Shown here piece after piece: positions 25,085 through 36,671 of a stretch of 64,000 nt of DNA. Numbering within the stretch: the stretch's first letter is position 1; each line of letters begins with the position of its first letter. The DNA is from an uncultured Brevinema sp. (GTDB lineage Bacteria > Spirochaetota > Brevinematia > Brevinematales > Brevinemataceae). The position numbers and the translations under genes are program-made. The DNA lies in assembly GCA_947038195.1 (NCBI GenBank), contig CAMQVI010000002.1, forward strand, positions 1-64,000, written 5' to 3'. Below the pieces are notes generated by a model. The model saw only the letters and a list, made by a program, of their open reading frames with translations. It was not told the origin of the DNA and ran no database searches.

Positions 25085-26458
25085 ATGAAAATAGTATCAA
25101 ACGACCAATCTACAATATTATTAGAAAGCAATAACATTTCAAAATCTATTATTACTATTTCCTTCCCTATGATGGTTACAGGTTTTGTAGATGCTTTATA
25201 CAATATTGTAGATTCTATTTTTGTAGGACGTTTTGTGGGAGAATATGCTCTTGCCGCCCTTGCTGTTAATAGTGCTATACAAATATTTTTAATAGCTATT
25301 GGTAGTCTTTATGGTACAGGGATGACTTCTATTATATCTCGCGCCTTAGGGGCAAAAAATGACTCTAAGGTAAAAAGTACGATTGTTAACGGGGTGTTCC
25401 TTTGTTTTATTTCGACTTTTGCTATTTCCCTCCTTGTATTATCTAATTTAGATAAAGTTTTAACATTTATGGGCTCTTCAGAGGATGTCCTTTCGTACTC
25501 TCGGCAATATGGTAGTATTATTTTATGGTTTGGCTTTCTTGTCCCTACTAATGGGGTGCTTCATGGTATTCTTAGAGCCAGGGGAGCTGTGAAAATTGTT
25601 ATGAAAATATCTATGATTAGTGCAGGTACTAATATTGTTCTTGACGCTCTATTTATTATTGTCTTTGGCTGGGGTGTTAAGGGTGCTGCTATTGCTACTA
25701 TTATCGCACAAATGATTAGCACCATCTTTCTTTTTAAAAATGTCTCTGAAAGCTATCTTGTTCATTTTGAAAGACATTACATTAAACAACTAAGATTTCC
25801 TCTTGTAAAAGAAATATATAGCATAGGGATCACTAATTTTCTTAAATCTTCTACCTTTGCTATTATAGGAATATCGGCAAATAGAGCGTTGGCACCTTAT
25901 GGAGCGACGGCTGTAGCAGCTTTTGGGGTTGTTACAAGAATCTTACATATGGCTTATATGCCTATTTTTGGCTCTAATCTAGGAACACAGGCATTGATAG
26001 GATTCAATTATGGAGCCAATCGTTTTATTAAAGTAAAGGATATCATTGTTAAGGCTTTACGTTTTGCGTTATTATTGGGCTTACTTCCATCTTTAATATT
26101 TTACATTGCCCCTACATGGCTTTTCACCTTGTTTACGGATTCTGAAGAAATTATTAAATATGCTTCTACCGCCATTCATATAGCAGGATTTACTTTCGCC
26201 CTCTATGGTTTCCAAATTTTCTCCAGTGGTGCTTTATTGGCGATGGGAAGACCTAAACAGGCTCTATTCCTCACCCTAGCACGACCTATTATTATGGTAC
26301 TATGTGTTAACACGCTGCCTCACTACTACGAAACTTTAGGAGTATGGCTCATGTACCCTATAACCGATATTATAGCATCTATTATGACTTTTATTATCAT
26401 AACAAGAGAGATCCGTATTTTGAAGAAAAGAGAAGAGTTACTAAGAACCATTAATTGA
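25085..26458 (+). CDS. MATE family efflux transporter, copy 1
   Basis: ISFPMMVTGFVDALYNIVDSIFVGRFVGEYALAALAV; 12 TM pattern. Confidence 0.92.
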   Translation: MKIVSNDQSTILLESNNISKSIITISFPMMVTGFVDALYNIVDSIFVGRFVGEYALAALAVNSAIQIFLIAIGSLYGTGMTSIISRALGAKNDSKVKSTIVNGVFLCFISTFAISLLVLSNLDKVLTFMGSSEDVLSYSRQYGSIILWFGFLVPTNGVLHGILRARGAVKIVMKISMISAGTNIVLDALFIIVFGWGVKGAAIATIIAQMISTIFLFKNVSESYLVHFERHYIKQLRFPLVKEIYSIGITNFLKSSTFAIIGISANRALAPYGATAVAAFGVVTRILHMAYMPIFGSNLGTQALIGFNYGANRFIKVKDIIVKALRFALLLGLLPSLIFYIAPTWLFTLFTDSEEIIKYASTAIHIAGFTFALYGFQIFSSGALLAMGRPKQALFLTLARPIIMVLCVNTLPHYYETLGVWLMYPITDIIASIMTFIIITREIRILKKREELLRTIN

Positions 26459-26475
26459 ATTATTAAAGAGAGTAT

Positions 26476-27834
26476 ATGCCCTCAAAAAAAATATTAGATA
26501 CTGACCATATTTTTCCTTTACTTATCAAATTGTCTATTCCTACTATTATTGGGGGATTTGCGTCTGCTTTATATAATATGGTAGATTCTATTTTTGTGGG
26601 AAAATATATCAGTAGTGATGCTCTAGCTGCCCTCACCATCGCCAACACGATACAAAATTCTTTTATTGCTTTTAGTGCTTTATGTAGTGTAGGAACAGGT
26701 ACCATAATCTCCCAATCACTAGGAGCTAGAAAATACGACCAAGTTAAAACGACCCTCTATACAGGGATTTTTGGGGTTTTTATTTGTACCTTTGTATTAT
26801 CTGTCTTTATGCTTTTATTTTTAGATCCCATTCTTCTTTTCACAGGTTCGACCTCAGAAATTCTAGCTGATGCTAGGACTTATATGAGTACCATTTTGTG
26901 GTTTGGATTCGTTATTCCTATGAATGGGGTGATGTCGGGTATTCTCAGAGCTAAAGGACACACCCAAGCTGCTATGGTATTAGCTTTAGTAGGAGCAACG
27001 CTCAATATAGGTTTAGATGCTTTATTTATTCTCACTTTTGGCTGGGGAGTATTTGGGGCAGCTTTTGCCACCGTAATAGCTCAATTAATTGTACTATTAT
27101 TTGCTTTTTACTATATCTATAAGGATTACGATTTATCTTTCTCCGACCCTATCAAAATAGATTTTTCTATACTTCGTCGGATTTTTGCTATTGGAGCACC
27201 TTCAGGATTGAGATTAGGGGCTATTGTTGTTGCAGGATTAGCAGCTAATCAATCTTTACAAATGTACGGCACTACAGCCATTGCGGCTATGGGAATTGTT
27301 AATAGACTTATTGCCCTTGCTTTCATGTCTATACAAGGGTGTAATTTTGGAGCTCAGCCCATTATTGCTTTTAATTTTGGAGCAAAACGCTTAGACAGAT
27401 TAAAAAGCACTATTAAAGTGGGTGTGGCGATTGTGTTTGTTATAGGGCTTATGGGTTCACTTGGTTCCCTATTTGCTCCAAAATCTTTTTTCTACTTATT
27501 TACAAATGACCCAAAAATAGCTATACTTACTAAAGAGGCTCTTGCTTATAATGGTGCTTTATTTTTCTTATTTGGACCTTACATGATTTTATCAGGATTT
27601 ATCCAATCCGTAGGACACACTAAAGAAGCTCTATTCCTTGCCTTATCTCGCCCTCTTTTTAATGCTCTTTTATTCAGAGTGTTGCCTATTTTTTATGGGC
27701 TACAAGGAGTATGGATTGTGATGCCCATCTCAGACATAGTCAATACTATTATTGCCATCGTATTAGCGCTACAAGTATATAATAAAATAAAACAAAACTT
27801 TACTACTCCTTATGTAGAAGTTATAAATAAATAA
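26476..27834 (+). CDS. MATE family efflux transporter, copy 2
   Basis: LSIPTIIGGFASALYNMVDSIFVGKYISSDALAALTI. Confidence 0.92.
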   Translation: MPSKKILDTDHIFPLLIKLSIPTIIGGFASALYNMVDSIFVGKYISSDALAALTIANTIQNSFIAFSALCSVGTGTIISQSLGARKYDQVKTTLYTGIFGVFICTFVLSVFMLLFLDPILLFTGSTSEILADARTYMSTILWFGFVIPMNGVMSGILRAKGHTQAAMVLALVGATLNIGLDALFILTFGWGVFGAAFATVIAQLIVLLFAFYYIYKDYDLSFSDPIKIDFSILRRIFAIGAPSGLRLGAIVVAGLAANQSLQMYGTTAIAAMGIVNRLIALAFMSIQGCNFGAQPIIAFNFGAKRLDRLKSTIKVGVAIVFVIGLMGSLGSLFAPKSFFYLFTNDPKIAILTKEALAYNGALFFLFGPYMILSGFIQSVGHTKEALFLALSRPLFNALLFRVLPIFYGLQGVWIVMPISDIVNTIIAIVLALQVYNKIKQNFTTPYVEVINK

Positions 27835-27846
27835 AAAGGAATCTAA

Positions 27847-29208
27847 ATGCCCGATAGTATTACCAACTTAAAAGAAGATAAGAATATTCTAAAATTATTA
27901 ATTGCTCTCTCTATTCCAGCAGTTATTTCTGGATTAGTAGATAGCCTTTATAATACAGTAGACTCCATCTTCGTGGGACAATATGTAGGGTCAGATGCCT
28001 TAGCAGCTCTTTCTATAATAAGTGTTATCCAGTTAATGTATATCTCTATAGGAGTTTTATTCTCCATAGGGAATGCCTCGATCATATCTCGTGCCTTAGG
28101 AGCACATCATCCAGAGAGAGTTCTTGCTTCTCTTACCCACGCTTTTTGGGGATTATTTTGTGTTTCTAATATTATTAGTTTTACCATTCTCCTTAATCTC
28201 GAGGCTTTTCTTCAATTAATAGGAGCCTCTGAAGTCGTCCTTCCTTATGCTCGCGAATATGGCAGTATTATTTTGTGGACAGGTTTTATCCTTCCTATCA
28301 ACAATATGCTTTTAGGAGCTTTTAGAGCCAGAGGACAGGCAGTACAAGCTACCTATTTCAATATACTTGGGGCAGGTCTTAACATAGGCTTAGATGCTCT
28401 GTTTATTATGGAATTTGGATGGGGAGTAGCTGGGGCAGCTATAGCTACAGCGATTAGTCAAAGTGTTGTCTTCATATTTGCCATTAGACAAGTCATGAAA
28501 ATGTACAAAACAAAATTTCTTTTACGCCATAAAGAAGAAATATCTTTCCCACTTTTGAAAGAAATAATAACCGTAGGAATGCCTACAGGTCTAAGACTTA
28601 TTTTATTTGTAGCGGTGGCATCTGTAGGGAATATTATTCTTGCTAAATATGGGACAGAATATCTTTCTTCTTTTGGGGTCTTCAACAGAGTCCTAAATTT
28701 ACTAGCTATGATTAATATTTCTCTTAGTATAGGGGCACAGCCTCTCATAGGCATCAATTACGGAGCACAGCTATATAAAAGAGTAAAGCATATTATTTTC
28801 ATAACACTGGTCACAGGATTTATCATGTCTGTAAGTGCCTCTTTATTTTTATATATGGCTCCCAATATGATCTTTAGTCTTTTCACACCAGATAAAAATA
28901 TTGTTCTTCTATGTCAGCAAATATCTCGTATGCACTCCTACACCTTTTGGGCTTGGGGAGTCTTTATTTGCATTGCAGAAGCACTACAAGCTATGGGGCA
29001 TGCGAAACAATCTTTCTATCTCTCTGTTTCCTACCCCCTTATGATGGGCACTCTTTTTGTGTTATTTGATCATTTGTGGGGTATAGATAGACTCTTTTGG
29101 GCGCCTGCTACTGCTTTCCTACTTATTGGCATTTTAGCTGTTATTGTGTTGATTATAGATTTGAAGAAATTAGATTTTAAAATTGAGCACCTTAAAAATG
29201 CTTATTAA
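27847..29208 (+). CDS. MATE family efflux transporter, copy 3
   Basis: LSIPAVISGLVDSLYNTVDSIFVGQYVGSDALAALSI. Confidence 0.92.
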   Translation: MPDSITNLKEDKNILKLLIALSIPAVISGLVDSLYNTVDSIFVGQYVGSDALAALSIISVIQLMYISIGVLFSIGNASIISRALGAHHPERVLASLTHAFWGLFCVSNIISFTILLNLEAFLQLIGASEVVLPYAREYGSIILWTGFILPINNMLLGAFRARGQAVQATYFNILGAGLNIGLDALFIMEFGWGVAGAAIATAISQSVVFIFAIRQVMKMYKTKFLLRHKEEISFPLLKEIITVGMPTGLRLILFVAVASVGNIILAKYGTEYLSSFGVFNRVLNLLAMINISLSIGAQPLIGINYGAQLYKRVKHIIFITLVTGFIMSVSASLFLYMAPNMIFSLFTPDKNIVLLCQQISRMHSYTFWAWGVFICIAEALQAMGHAKQSFYLSVSYPLMMGTLFVLFDHLWGIDRLFWAPATAFLLIGILAVIVLIIDLKKLDFKIEHLKNAY

Positions 29209-30502: not shown

Positions 30503-31276
30503 ATGTTTTCCCTAGAAGTCCAAAATCTCTCTGCTTGCTATGGTAAAGATCTTGTGGTGTCTGATGTCTCTTTTTCTCTTTCCCAAGGGGAAATGCTAGC
30601 GGTAATAGGACCTAATGGTTCAGGGAAAAGTACCCTTCTTAAAGCTATTTTAGGATTCAAAACCCCCACGGCGGGCTCTGTACTCATCAATGGACTTCCT
30701 CCCCAAAAAGCTATAAAACAATTTAAAGGTGATATTGCTTACCTCCCCCAACAACACCAAATTAACAATCTCCTTCCTCTTACTGCCTATGACATCGTAG
30801 CACAGGGATTCAAGGCAAGAAAATCATGGGGACAATCTCTTAATTCCGAAGAAAAAGATAAAATTCTTCACGCTCTTGAAAAAGTACAGCTTGTAGACTT
30901 CAAAGAAGAATTGTTCTCTCATCTTTCTGGAGGACAAAGGCAAAGAATACTCCTCGCTTTAGCTCTTGCCAACCAACCCAAACTCCTTTTCTTAGATGAG
31001 CCCACAAATGCCTTGGATTATGCTTCTATAGAAAGTATCTACCAAATTTTAGACAAACTCCGCTCTCAACAAGTAGGTATTCTTATCATATCACATGACA
31101 TTAGCACTATTGTTTCTACTTCTGATAAAATTGCTGTTCTTATGCAAAAAATGCATTACTACGGTATTCCTTCTCAGCTTCCCGAAGATATCATTCACCA
31201 TGTTTTTGGTTCTCATATTAAAATCATTCCCAACGACCCTAACTGTAAAGAGTGTTCTCTTGACCATCATTCTTAA
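30503..31276 (+). CDS. Metal (Zn/Mn) ABC transporter ATP-binding protein, ZnuC-like
   Basis: GPNGSGKSTLLKAI, LSGGQRQRILLALALANQPKLLFLDEPTNALD. Confidence 0.88.
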   Translation: MFSLEVQNLSACYGKDLVVSDVSFSLSQGEMLAVIGPNGSGKSTLLKAILGFKTPTAGSVLINGLPPQKAIKQFKGDIAYLPQQHQINNLLPLTAYDIVAQGFKARKSWGQSLNSEEKDKILHALEKVQLVDFKEELFSHLSGGQRQRILLALALANQPKLLFLDEPTNALDYASIESIYQILDKLRSQQVGILIISHDISTIVSTSDKIAVLMQKMHYYGIPSQLPEDIIHHVFGSHIKIIPNDPNCKECSLDHHS

Positions 31277-31545
31277 TCTCTAATTTCCACCTTATTATCT
31301 ATATTACTTTCCATCGTAAACTCAGAAATCACAAAAGTAGAAACCCCGACCAGCAAAGCAGCAGTAGCTGTCGTGAGGAGAAGACTCCAAATGTTTTTTT
31401 TATAGATTGTTTGTTGTCGTAGTTTATTCATTAATATATCTTTCCCAAGACTATTTATATAAGCTGAAGGTGCAAAATTTTCTTTATAGTACCCCAATAA
31501 AATACGATCTAAATCAGGATCTTCCTTATTGTTAAATTCAATCAT
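31273..31545 (-). CDS. Small single-TM protein, putative anti-sigma factor
   Basis: Overlaps the end of the ECF sigma gene by 4 nt; cytoplasmic N-terminus, one TM, short tail. Confidence 0.5.
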   Translation of the reverse strand: MIEFNNKEDPDLDRILLGYYKENFAPSAYINSLGKDILMNKLRQQTIYKKNIWSLLLTTATAALLVGVSTFVISEFTMESNIDNKVEIRD

Positions 31546-32126
31546 ACTAATGCTCCTTTATTTAACTCTATTTTTATTTTATTTCTTGCTTGATATAATC
31601 TATTTTTAATAGCTGTATCTGTTGTTCCTACAATATCTGCTATTTCTTTAATGGAGTATCTTTCATAATAATACAAATCCACCGCTTCTTGTAAATCTTT
31701 ACTGAGAGTCCCTATAATTTGTTCAAGAGTATTTTTATCTACACTCGTATTCTCTGTTTCTTCTGAAGAAGCAATGTTCTCAAAAGAATCAGCATCTTTC
31801 CCAAATACAGCAAAATAACGCCGTTCTCTAGATTTCTTTTTAGAAACCCTAAAAGCATAGTTTAAAACTATTCTATAAGCATAAGTAGAAAATTTAGAAT
31901 TGCCCTTAAAACCTTTTAAAGATTTATATATAATAAGAAACGCTTCATTTACTAAAGCGTCCACTTCTGAAGGATTCGGTTTTATGATACGCCTAATAAT
32001 AGATATAACCATTTTGTAATAATAGTCATAAATAATCTCAAAAGAATCATTATCGCCACGAAGAATCTCCCCAATAATTTCTAGCACTTCTTGTTCTGTT
32101 AATATTCTTGTTTCTGCTGTGTCCAT
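31542..32126 (-). CDS. ECF-type RNA polymerase sigma factor
   Basis: Region 2 (ALVNEAFLIIYKSLKGFKGNSKFSTYAYRIVLN) and region 4 (DLYYYERYSIKEIADIVGTTDTAIKNRLYQARNKIK). Confidence 0.88.
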   Translation of the reverse strand: MDTAETRILTEQEVLEIIGEILRGDNDSFEIIYDYYYKMVISIIRRIIKPNPSEVDALVNEAFLIIYKSLKGFKGNSKFSTYAYRIVLNYAFRVSKKKSRERRYFAVFGKDADSFENIASSEETENTSVDKNTLEQIIGTLSKDLQEAVDLYYYERYSIKEIADIVGTTDTAIKNRLYQARNKIKIELNKGALV

Positions 32127-32438: not shown

Positions 32439-33464
32439 GTGGAATATTTTTTAGACTTTGACCTTCCCGAAGAGTTAATAGCCACCCACCCGTCTATAAA
32501 AAGAGATGGAGATAGAATGATTATATTTCAAGATAATCAAGTATCTCATGAGCATTTTACGCACATAAAAAACTATCTAAAAAAAGATGATATTATTGTC
32601 TTTAATAATAGTAAAGTCTTTAAAGCTCGCTTGGATATTTTTGCTATAAATAGAGAAGTGCAATCAGAACTATTGCTAATAAGACAAGAAAGTGCTATAA
32701 TATGGGTAGCTATGATTAAAAAAGCGAGACGTTTTAAAGTGGGAGATTCTTTTATTCTTAGTAATGGATTAAAAGTCAAAGTCCTAGAGATATTAGAAGA
32801 TGGGCTAAGACGATTGGAGTTCGAAAGATCGTTCTCACCCAAAGACGCAGAAGATATTGGACGTATCCCCCTTCCTCCTTATATCATCGATGAAAGGAAA
32901 AAACGAGGTGAAGACCTCTATACGAAAGAAGATGAAACCCGCTACCAAACGCTTTTCGCTAAATATTATGGTTCTGTAGCAGCCCCTACAGCATCTCTTC
33001 GTTTTTCCGAAGAAGTACTAAAAGAGTTAAAAGACTTTGGTATCCAATTTGAAGAAATTACCCTACATGTAGGGCTTGGGACTTTTAAACCCATGGATGT
33101 AAGTCCTGATGAATATGAGATTCATAAAGAATATATTTCCGTGGAACAAGATACCATAGAGAGGCTGTTAAAAGCTAAAAAAGATGGAAGACGTATCATT
33201 GCTGCAGGTACTACGGTATGTAGAGCCTTGGAGTCAGCTCAAGATAAAGCCTATGAAGGCTGGACGAATATCTTTATAAAGCCGGGCTATGAATTTAGTC
33301 TGATTGATGCCCTAATAACAAACTTTCACCTCCCCAATTCTACTTTGTTATTATTGGTACAGGCTTTTGTAGGAATAGAAAATACTAAAAAAATATACAA
33401 AGAAGCTCTAAAAGAAAAATATCGATTTTTTTCTTACGGAGATGGGATGATTTTATTCAAATAA
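32439..33464 (+). CDS. queA: S-adenosylmethionine:tRNA ribosyltransferase-isomerase (GTG start)
   Basis: FDLPEELIATHPSIKRDGDRM, GRIPLPPYI, APTASLRFS, HVGLGTFKP, TNFHLPNSTLLLLVQAF. Confidence 0.97.
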   Translation: MEYFLDFDLPEELIATHPSIKRDGDRMIIFQDNQVSHEHFTHIKNYLKKDDIIVFNNSKVFKARLDIFAINREVQSELLLIRQESAIIWVAMIKKARRFKVGDSFILSNGLKVKVLEILEDGLRRLEFERSFSPKDAEDIGRIPLPPYIIDERKKRGEDLYTKEDETRYQTLFAKYYGSVAAPTASLRFSEEVLKELKDFGIQFEEITLHVGLGTFKPMDVSPDEYEIHKEYISVEQDTIERLLKAKKDGRRIIAAGTTVCRALESAQDKAYEGWTNIFIKPGYEFSLIDALITNFHLPNSTLLLLVQAFVGIENTKKIYKEALKEKYRFFSYGDGMILFK

Positions 33465-33496
33465 TCCCATAAAGCATAAAATAAAAGGAGGCTACA

Positions 33497-33565
33497 ATGT
33501 CTTGTTGCAAAGTTATGTGTTGTTGTTGTAAAGGCTGGTGTTCCGTACAAAATCACGCAGGATAA
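33497..33565 (+). CDS. 22-aa cysteine-rich mini-protein MSCCKVMCCCCKGWCSVQNHAG (not in the supplied ORF track)
   Basis: Near-perfect SD AAAGGAGG 6 nt upstream of ATG; 7 Cys in 22 aa; sits before a P1B heavy-metal ATPase. Confidence 0.55.
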   Translation: MSCCKVMCCCCKGWCSVQNHAG

Positions 33566-33569
33566 GAAA

Positions 33570-33668
33570 GCCATATATTTTCATAGTAAAACTAGAGAGG
33601 AATATATGGCTCAAAAAATAAACAAAGCCTATATTCCTTATAAAAACAATTAAGGAAAAATATATGGC
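33570..33668 (+). promoter_or_regulatory. Putative translational switch: one GCCATATATT arm and two identical AATATATGGC arms spanning start codons
   Basis: GCCATATATT 33570-33579; AATATATGGC 33601-33610 (ATG 33606) and 33659-33668 (ATG 33664). Confidence 0.45.
33606..33653 (+). CDS. 15-aa putative leader peptide MAQKINKAYIPYKNN
   Basis: SD-like gagagg 5 nt upstream; stop 10 nt before the ATPase ATG. Confidence 0.35.
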   Translation: MAQKINKAYIPYKNN

Positions 33669-35631
33669 AAAATGTGCTGGTGGATGCTGTTCGCATCAAG
33701 AAGATAACAAAAACGATCACGGTCACGACCATGACCACGATCAAAATCTCACTCTTCAAGAGATCCTAAAAGAATCATTTTTTGCGATAATATCATTTGT
33801 GATATTATTTGCTGGGATCATTATAGATTTTTTAAAAATTCCATTTTTTCAAGATACACTCACCCAATTAATTTGGTATGGTGTTCCTTTCATTTTGGTG
33901 GGTTTTCCTGTCATTCTAACTGCTATTAAGTTAATGCTTAAAGGTGACTTTTTCAATGAATTAAGCCTTATGTCTATTGCTACTATTGGTGCTTTTGTAC
34001 TCGGTGAATTTTCCGAAGGCTTAGGCGTTATGGTGTTCTATTCTATTGGAGAAGTGTTTCAAGGACTCGCCGTTTCTAAAGCTAAAAATAATATTAAAGC
34101 TCTTTTAGACGTAAGACCAGATGTAGCTTATGTTTTGAGAGGGGATGTAATTGTCCCTCTTGACCCAGAAGAAGTAGAAATTGGAGAAATAATAGAAATA
34201 AGAACAGGGGAAAAAATACCCTTAGACGGAGTTCTTATTACAGAAAAAGCGGCTTTTAACACAGCTGCCTTAACGGGAGAATCTGTCCCTCGTAACATTA
34301 AAGCTAACGAAGAAGTACTAGCTGGGATGCTTTCTTCTGATAAAACGGTAAGAATACAAGTAACTAAAACCTACCAAAATTCCACTCTTGCTCGTATCCT
34401 TACAATGGTACAAGAAGCCTCAGAGAACAAGTCCCCCACAGAACAATTTATTAGAAAATTTGCAAGGGTTTATACCCCTATTGTTTTTGGTCTAGCGACT
34501 CTACTTGTTATTGCGCCTTTCTTCATTTTAGGGGCTACAGAATATGAATTTGCTGATTGGTTCTATAGATCATTGATTTTCTTGGTAATATCTTGTCCCT
34601 GTGCTTTTGTCATTAGTGTGCCTTTAGGTTACTTTGGTGGTATAGGTCTAGGGTCTTCACAAGGAGTACTCTTTAAAGGAGGTAACTTCCTTGAAGCAAT
34701 GAACAACCTTAAAACCCTAGTTACCGACAAAACAGGTACTATCACTAAAGGAGTATTTACGGTACAAGAGGTAATCGCTGAAGATAAAGACCTTTTCTTT
34801 AAAAATTTACTAGCAATAGAAAAACACAGTACTCACCCTATTGCCAAAGCTATTATCGAATACCTTACAACCCAAAATATTTCTCCTGTAGAAGTAGATA
34901 AAGTTTCCGAAATTGCTGGTTTAGGACTAGAAGGACAAGTAAGCCAAGGCACTCTCCTTGTGGGTAATATTAAACTTATGGATAAGAATAATATTTCTGT
35001 GCCAGAACATCTTAGAAATATCGCTAAAACAGTGGTATTTGCAGGATTAAATAATAGTTTTCTCGGAGCTGCCGTAGTAGCAGATGAAATCAAAGAAGAC
35101 GCTAGATTAGCCATACAAAAACTTCACAAATTAGGAGTGAATGTCATCATGCTTTCTGGCGATAAACAAGAAATTGTTGACGAAATCGCCAAAGAACTAT
35201 CTATAGATGAAGCTTATGGGGAATTGTTACCTGCTCAAAAAGCAGAGTATTTTGAGAAAATCAAAAAAGAATCCAAACCCAAAGACATCATCGCTTTTGT
35301 GGGTGATGGTATTAACGATGCCCCTGTTTTAGCTCTTAGTGATGTAGGTATTGCTATGGGAGGACTAGGAAGTGATTTGGCTATTGAGACAGCAGATGTT
35401 ATTATCCAAACAGACGAACCTTCAAAAATCCCTCTTGCTGTAAATATTGCACAAGAAACTAGAAAAATCGTAGTACAAAATATCACCCTCGCTATGGGAG
35501 TAAAACTAATTGTTCTCTTTTTAGGTGCTTATGGTTTAGCCTCTATGTGGGAAGCTATCTTTGCCGATGTGGGTGTTTCACTAATAGCCACTGTTAATTC
35601 TACTCGTTTATTAGGTAAAGAATTTAACTAA
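33664..35631 (+). CDS. Heavy-metal translocating P-type ATPase (Zn/Cd/Pb type)
   Basis: CPC TM motif (ISCPCAFVISVPLGYFGG), DKTGTITKG, GDGINDAPVLALSDVGIAMG; N-terminal Cys/His-rich MAKCAGGCCSHQED...HGHDHDHD. Confidence 0.95.
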   Translation: MAKCAGGCCSHQEDNKNDHGHDHDHDQNLTLQEILKESFFAIISFVILFAGIIIDFLKIPFFQDTLTQLIWYGVPFILVGFPVILTAIKLMLKGDFFNELSLMSIATIGAFVLGEFSEGLGVMVFYSIGEVFQGLAVSKAKNNIKALLDVRPDVAYVLRGDVIVPLDPEEVEIGEIIEIRTGEKIPLDGVLITEKAAFNTAALTGESVPRNIKANEEVLAGMLSSDKTVRIQVTKTYQNSTLARILTMVQEASENKSPTEQFIRKFARVYTPIVFGLATLLVIAPFFILGATEYEFADWFYRSLIFLVISCPCAFVISVPLGYFGGIGLGSSQGVLFKGGNFLEAMNNLKTLVTDKTGTITKGVFTVQEVIAEDKDLFFKNLLAIEKHSTHPIAKAIIEYLTTQNISPVEVDKVSEIAGLGLEGQVSQGTLLVGNIKLMDKNNISVPEHLRNIAKTVVFAGLNNSFLGAAVVADEIKEDARLAIQKLHKLGVNVIMLSGDKQEIVDEIAKELSIDEAYGELLPAQKAEYFEKIKKESKPKDIIAFVGDGINDAPVLALSDVGIAMGGLGSDLAIETADVIIQTDEPSKIPLAVNIAQETRKIVVQNITLAMGVKLIVLFLGAYGLASMWEAIFADVGVSLIATVNSTRLLGKEFN

Positions 35632-35792: not shown

Positions 35793-35852
35793 AAGCTAAC
35801 AAGTAAGAAAAATTAGTCGCTAACACTTCTATTTTTCTAAAGGAGTAGATTG

Positions 35853-36671
35853 ATGTATCGTATAGGAGATTTTTCCAAGCTCAGTAAAACCACCGTCAAA
35901 ACACTGAGGTATTATGGAGAAATAGGCTTACTACAGCCAGAAGAGGTAGATGAGTTGACAGGATATCGCTTTTATACAAGCAAACAACTGTTTACACTTC
36001 ATAGAATACAGGCTCTTCGTCAAATAGGAATTTCCATTGATGAAATAAAAAAGATTGTGTCCGGACACAATCCTAATGACATTTTGGAAAAACGAAAGTC
36101 TGAAATGATAGCTCTTCTTTCCGAAACGAACGATCAACTCTCCCGACTTGAATTTATTTTACAAGGAAAACAGGAGGAAGAATTTATGAAATTCGTCGCT
36201 ATAATTAAAGAATTACCAGAGTGTATTGTCTATTCACTGAAAATGACAGTGCCAGACTATAATTCTTATTTTAACCTAATACCCGCTTTAGGAGAAAAGG
36301 TTCTTAAAAAATACCCAGATTTAAAATGTACAATACCAGAATATTGTTTTATTTCTTATCTTGATGGTGAGTATAAAGAAAAAGATATTAATATCGAATT
36401 TTGTGAGGCGGTGGATCAACTTAAGCCTGATTTTGATGGTATCGTTTTCAAAAAGATTGATTCTGTTACCGCAGTTTCTATCATGTATAAAGGTCCTTAT
36501 TCGCAGCTATTTCAAGCGTATAGTTTTGCTTTTAACTGGATAGAACAAAACGGATACACAGTTGTAGATTCTCCAAGAGAAAATTATATTGATGGTATTT
36601 GGAACAAAGATACCCCATCAGAGTGGCTAACAGAACTACAAATCCCAATCACTAAATCTTTGGAAAAATAG
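35853..36671 (+). CDS. MerR family regulator with C-terminal GyrI-like effector domain
   Basis: MYRIGDFSKLSKTTVKTLRYYGEIGLLQPEEVDELTGYRFYT HTH; C-terminal YKGPYSQLFQAYSFAFNWIEQNGY. Confidence 0.92.
   Translation: MYRIGDFSKLSKTTVKTLRYYGEIGLLQPEEVDELTGYRFYTSKQLFTLHRIQALRQIGISIDEIKKIVSGHNPNDILEKRKSEMIALLSETNDQLSRLEFILQGKQEEEFMKFVAIIKELPECIVYSLKMTVPDYNSYFNLIPALGEKVLKKYPDLKCTIPEYCFISYLDGEYKEKDINIEFCEAVDQLKPDFDGIVFKKIDSVTAVSIMYKGPYSQLFQAYSFAFNWIEQNGYTVVDSPRENYIDGIWNKDTPSEWLTELQIPITKSLEK

Follow-up and report, generated by a model that had tools for sequence, protein, structure and literature searches.

A 22-codon, cysteine-rich ORF that lies between queA and a P1B-type metal ATPase gene in an uncultured Brevinema species is probably a cis-acting leader that gates translation of the ATPase. 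Comparison with related genomes shows that the ORF and a hairpin predicted to bury the ATPase start are conserved and were lost together once, and folding models predict that the gating would be exerted by a ribosome at the end of the leader.

A cysteine-rich ORF precedes a Zn/Cd-class ATPase gene

An earlier note on this DNA had picked out, in the 64-kb stretch analysed here (the window), a 22-residue ORF with seven cysteines and a Shine-Dalgarno (SD) sequence, followed as the next long gene by a CPC-type P1B ATPase with a Cys/His-rich N-terminus; both observations are borne out by the sequence (Table 1). The ORF runs from ATG 33497 to TAA 33563-33565, with an SD-to-ATG spacing of 5 nt, and is the sole ORF of 10-40 aa in the window with at least six cysteines and at least 25% Cys. 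No ORF of such Cys content in that size range arose in 40 simulated first-order Markov windows. The peptide matches no Pfam family at E ≤ 1 and has no signal peptide and no Pro-rich C-terminus. ORFs of this length are easily overlooked by annotation. Two further features had gone unnoticed, an SD-preceded 15-aa ORF downstream of the leader and perfect inverted repeats over both downstream start sites, which would form a hairpin in the mRNA.

Table 1. Features of the queA-ATPase region, in window coordinates
Feature	Coordinates	Strand	Basis and remarks
queA, upstream gene	32439..33464	+	Pfam PF02547
SD of the leader, AAAGGAGG	33484..33491	+	Sequence; AAGGAGG in G001/G002, weakened AAGAGAG in G003
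Leader ORF, 22 aa, 7 Cys, MSCCKVMCCCCKGWCSVQNHAG	33497..33565	+	Kept in G001/G002; neutral simulation
Arm A1 (anti-start arm), AGCCATATATTTTC	33569..33582	+	Perfect complementarity; begins 3-4 nt past the leader stop
Arm B1, SD and start of second mini-ORF	33597..33611	+	Folding, inverted repeats
Second mini-ORF, 15 aa, MAQKINKAYIPYKNN	33606..33653	+	Window's species only; its start region repeats, in diverged form, the ATPase start region 58 nt away
Arm A2, GCCTATATTCCTTA	33627..33640	+	Folding; predicted to pair with B1 or B2
Arm B2, ATPase SD and start codon, TAAGGAAAAATATATGGC	33651..33668	+	Predicted buried, opening cost 12.5 kcal/mol
P1B ATPase, Zn/Cd class (ZntA/CadA type), Cys/His-rich N-terminus	33664..35631	+	TIGR01512; PDB 4umv

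The downstream gene is a Zn/Cd-class P1B ATPase, as judged from its score against the cadmium-family model TIGR01512 (453.8 bits, cutoff 313.5) and its CPC motif, found in SCPCAFVIS. The best whole-length PDB sequences are zinc and cadmium ATPases, with the zinc ATPase 4umv on top, plus 7qbz. Between queA and the leader, the plus strand showed no intrinsic terminator, nor did we find a promoter that was convincing.

The surrounding region holds other genes of transport and regulation. An ABC transporter ATPase (30503-31276) lies near zinc/manganese uptake ATPases in sequence (AztA, MntA and ZnuC models, all below cutoff) and carries a tail rich in Cys and His, NDPNCKECSLDHHS; the gene precedes the exporter by about 2.4 kb. 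Directly after the P1B ATPase is a gene for a MerR-type regulator with a GyrI-like domain (35850-36671), whose similarity to ZntR/CueR is weak and confined to the N-terminal part. Three MATE-like transporter genes, named from sequence and encoding about 453 aa each, stand in tandem at 25085-29208, and the minus strand at 31273-32126 carries an ECF sigma factor gene and, after it, a 90-aa ORF that includes a hydrophobic stretch and may encode its anti-sigma factor.

The leader is conserved in two congeners and lost in a third

The ATPase is present in the window (G000), in three other Brevinema genomes (G001, G002 and G003) and in one genome from another genus of the family (G004). G001 and G002 encode a 22-aa homologue, MSCCIVMCCCQ[TI]GACSPNCHAG, with an SD, between queA and the same P1B ATPase. 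Across the three species the leader retains its length, SD and position, as well as its start and stop, with no indel in 69 nt. Fifteen of the 22 residues are invariant, including C3, C4, C8, C9, C10, C15 and the terminal HAG, such that six of the seven cysteines and one histidine are kept while other positions diverge. Since dS between the window and G001/G002 reaches 1.6-1.9 in queA and the ATPase, close to saturation, neutral sequence is expected to be largely randomised. In a simple neutral simulation at 50% site identity, which takes no account of selection on overlapping RNA, an ORF survived in 0.7% of runs, and one with the six shared cysteines in 0 of 400,000. The earlier reading had been staked on conservation of the Cys pattern, SD and frame in close relatives, and these are retained in two of three congeners. 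The intact leaders number three, all from one genus, and two of them are 95% identical at the DNA level.

A chance ORF, or conservation as RNA instead of peptide, is highly improbable in our estimation. The leader is short, and third codon positions of the window and G001 are identical at 59% in the leader against 48% in the ATPase, so some constraint may act on the RNA; however, the uninterrupted frame with its preserved signals, the outcome of the simulation and the lack of an Rfam family all speak against this explanation.

In G003, the ATPase is intact and the leader is reduced to a broken remnant, MSCFIYRS followed by a stop, behind a weakened SD. By amino acid identity, G003 stands at 79% (ATPase) and 82% (queA) to G001 and at 67% and 71% to the window. 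With identity as a guide to kinship, G003 is thus closer to G001 than to the window, which implies that the ancestor of the genus carried the leader and that G003 lost it. In G004 the leader is absent and the ATPase directly follows queA. The ATPase of this sister genus (L005:1450) itself starts with MNCCCTNNQSCEPENQNHE, resembling the leader peptide, and in G001 the leader end shares a 10-of-11-nt repeat with codons for the ATPase N-terminus, though a repeat of this length carries little weight. These resemblances hint that the leader arose out of the 5' end of the ATPase gene.

When 395 genomes from the phylum were scanned by pattern, the leader was recovered in the three Brevinema species only, plus one match without an SD. 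A similar scan of GTDB contigs gave 13 stretches, two of them genuine Brevinema records and the others lacking an SD or the ATPase context, and a general SD-ATG-CysCys pattern gave many unrelated matches in five genomes. Upstream of 30 related ATPases, SD-preceded small ORFs with at least three cysteines comprised the three leaders and one three-Cys GTG ORF (L024); at 40 more distant ATPase loci, including the second ATPases of these genomes (L099-L103), we found three unrelated short ORFs.

These distributions bear on a trans-acting role, in which the peptide would act as a micro-metallothionein or metal donor, buffering metal or handing it to the ATPase, and the hairpin would only couple its synthesis. 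Such a role is possible from composition, and we consider it unlikely. Like metallothioneins, the leader is a small peptide of very high Cys content; its cysteines and a histidine persist amid divergence, and the N-terminus of the ATPase is likewise Cys/His-rich. Some fungal copper metallothioneins have about 25 residues and seven cysteines. Against this, the scans of the 395 phylum genomes and of GTDB contigs gave no homologue away from this ATPase, G003 maintains an intact ATPase without the peptide, and the peptide is very short, just 22 aa with no Pfam match, and its CC and CCC runs differ from the CXC or CXXC spacing usual in metallothioneins.

A hairpin is predicted to bury the ATPase start

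The ATPase RBS is predicted to be buried by pairing with sequence next to the leader. The core of arm A1 (33570-33581) can pair without mismatch over 12 nt with the ATPase start region (33657-33668), and A1 also forms a perfect 11-nt complement to 33601-33611. The same hairpin occurs in G001 and G002, with a GCC foot 3 nt from the leader stop. To expose the ATPase SD and start codon would take a predicted 12.5, 12.7 and 12.8 kcal/mol in the three genomes that carry the leader, and 2.8 in G003. With 115 nt of upstream context, the three leader-bearing starts rank as the top three of 76 SD-preceded starts (median 5.5), a sample of long ORFs taken from a mechanical list at their first ATG, with the three starts included. 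When the spacer alone was shuffled with dinucleotides preserved, the observed cost was reached in 0, 0 and 1 of 300 shuffles. One stem pair is changed on both sides, from U-A in the window to C-G in G001/G002; covariation is thin since the remaining stem pairs hardly vary. Rfam searches for a known riboswitch gave sub-threshold chance matches only. In G003 the leader and the hairpin are both gone, which counts as one event and could be a coincidence.

In the window's species, the spacer is enlarged by the second mini-ORF, which appears from sequence to have arisen by duplication of the start region and whose own start is buried too. The region thereby has four arms, with predicted pairing energies of -15.5 (A1:B1), -10.5 (A2:B2) and -14.7 kcal/mol (B1:A2). 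In the best fold, with a z of -3.8, A1:B2 encloses B1:A2, and covering A1 lowers the predicted cost of opening B2.

The layout recalls mgtQ and erm-type leaders, in that an SD-bearing short ORF, its SD, start and stop conserved in three species, stands upstream of a gene whose RBS is predicted to be buried by pairing near the leader. With mgtQ, the region shares a short ORF with a strong SD within an operon, upstream of a transporter gene with a buried RBS, and a scheme of alternative pairings, 1:2 and 3:4 versus 2:3, in which translation of the ORF frees the RBS, here by prediction (PMC8092293). It differs in that mgtQ relies on acidic residues and ribosome destabilisation and serves a Mg2+ importer, whereas the Brevinema leader is rich in cysteine and precedes a pump of the Zn/Cd export class.

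A ribosome at the leader end would free the ATPase start

To place the ribosome in these models, we masked its footprint codon by codon, with leading edges of 14-18 nt, in all three species. In the models, the ATPase start opens only once the P-site has moved to A21 or G22. At G22 the predicted opening cost drops to 4.0, 3.7 and 5.2 kcal/mol in the three species; with a +15 leading edge it does not fall appreciably below 8 at any earlier site tested, up to H20. When stalls are placed at C3-C15, the modelled cost is about 8.5-14 kcal/mol and the start remains closed. Since modelled stalls at Cys codons do not open the start, we favour a ribosome that finishes the leader, or is delayed as it does so, over an attenuator that responds to Cys starvation.

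In such a Cys-tRNA attenuator, a shortage of cysteine would stall ribosomes at the Cys codons and so control the ATPase. The poly-Cys leader peptides of actinobacterial cys operons (PMC1262725; reportedly also Canestrari 2020) resemble ours, since they too are encoded by very short ORFs that contain Cys-codon runs and stand ahead of operons. They belong to cysteine metabolism, however, their Cys run lies near the stop codon, and PMC1262725 reports no conserved hairpin for them. In the Brevinema leader, the conserved cysteines are at positions 3, 4, 8, 9, 10 and 15, the last of them at codon 15, and the modelled stalls keep the RBS closed; moreover, thiol depletion would presumably turn the pump off, the opposite of what is needed. 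We regard Cys-tRNA control as very unlikely. The suggestion in the earlier note, made beside those of a micro-metallothionein and a metal donor, that the peptide is a leader sensing metal or thiol state accordingly fares unevenly: the start-site hairpin lends independent support to a leader, and the stalling models count against the sensing of Cys or thiol supply.

The mechanism that we prefer, gating in cis, would proceed as follows. The queA mRNA would continue through the leader into the ATPase gene, and the mini-ORF would be translated as a cis-acting leader. By default, the segment past the leader stop would pair with the ATPase SD and start codon, blocking initiation. A ribosome at the last codons or the stop of the leader would cover the G+C-rich foot of the hairpin and free the ATPase start. 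With the second mini-ORF inserted by duplication in the window's species, covering of A1 would allow B1:A2 to pair and thereby release B2.

Such a device need not carry a signal. Under plain translational coupling, ATPase output would be proportional to upstream translation and the peptide sequence would matter little. RBS hairpins opened by upstream translation are also a feature of plain operon coupling without sensing. The queA TAG stop directly adjoins the leader ATG in G001 and G002 (gap 0), and mgtQ is a precedent for a short ORF that acts mainly by opening an RBS (PMC8092293). Coupling of this kind does not account for the retention of the Cys codons and the HAG end where synonymous divergence is close to saturation, and we judge it improbable as the full account.

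Sensing of metal by the nascent peptide is plausible, and less likely than gating in cis. We speculate that, when the six conserved cysteines of the emerging peptide bind Zn or Cd, termination at the conserved HAG-stop end is delayed, such that a ribosome would be held at the leader end when metal is in excess and the exporter would be made. In its full form, this proposal has a 22-residue nascent peptide in the ribosome tunnel bind Zn(II)/Cd(II) through six cysteines and arrest its own termination in the manner of TnaC, holding the exporter start open as a ribosome-borne Zn/Cd sensor; we offer it tentatively, as a doubtful possibility.

The best precedent for sensing is CutF-cutO of Rhodobacter capsulatus, where bound metal is reported to slow the ribosome, which allows the stem-loop covering the following SD to open (PMC9973294). 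In both systems the upstream ORF encodes a Cys metal motif, putative in our case, and a stem-loop shields the SD of the metal-detoxification gene directly after it, here by prediction. CutF, in contrast, is exported and longer, with a Sec signal, a CxxxC motif and a Pro-rich stall end; the Brevinema peptide has 22 aa and neither a signal peptide nor a Pro-rich end. In CruR of Bordetella pertussis (DUF2946, PMC9426467), cysteines of a nascent protein sense metal and control downstream genes, a function that is a proposal here, but CruR works through Rho-dependent termination with a RAPP arrest motif, responds to copper and is unrelated in sequence. The leader was also considered as a member of the CutF/CruR (DUF2946) class of metal-sensing upstream ORFs, which is marked by a DUF2946/CutF-like sequence with CXXC or CXXXC and an arrest motif (RAPP or Pro-rich end), and set aside, given its lack of a Pfam family and of a Pro-rich C-terminus.

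Implications

The arrangement of leader and hairpin is real, and in the literature searched we found no description of it, no report of a Cys-rich Zn/Cd leader and no study of metal regulation in this spirochaete lineage. It looks like an uncharacterised translational switch, a variant of leader-ORF control. Leader and hairpin together render the idea directly testable by simple reporters. In the literature searched, nascent-chain metal sensing concerns copper, and the proteins involved are longer. If true, a Cys-rich leader of minimal size before a Zn/Cd exporter would show how far a metal sensor that acts in translation can be reduced.
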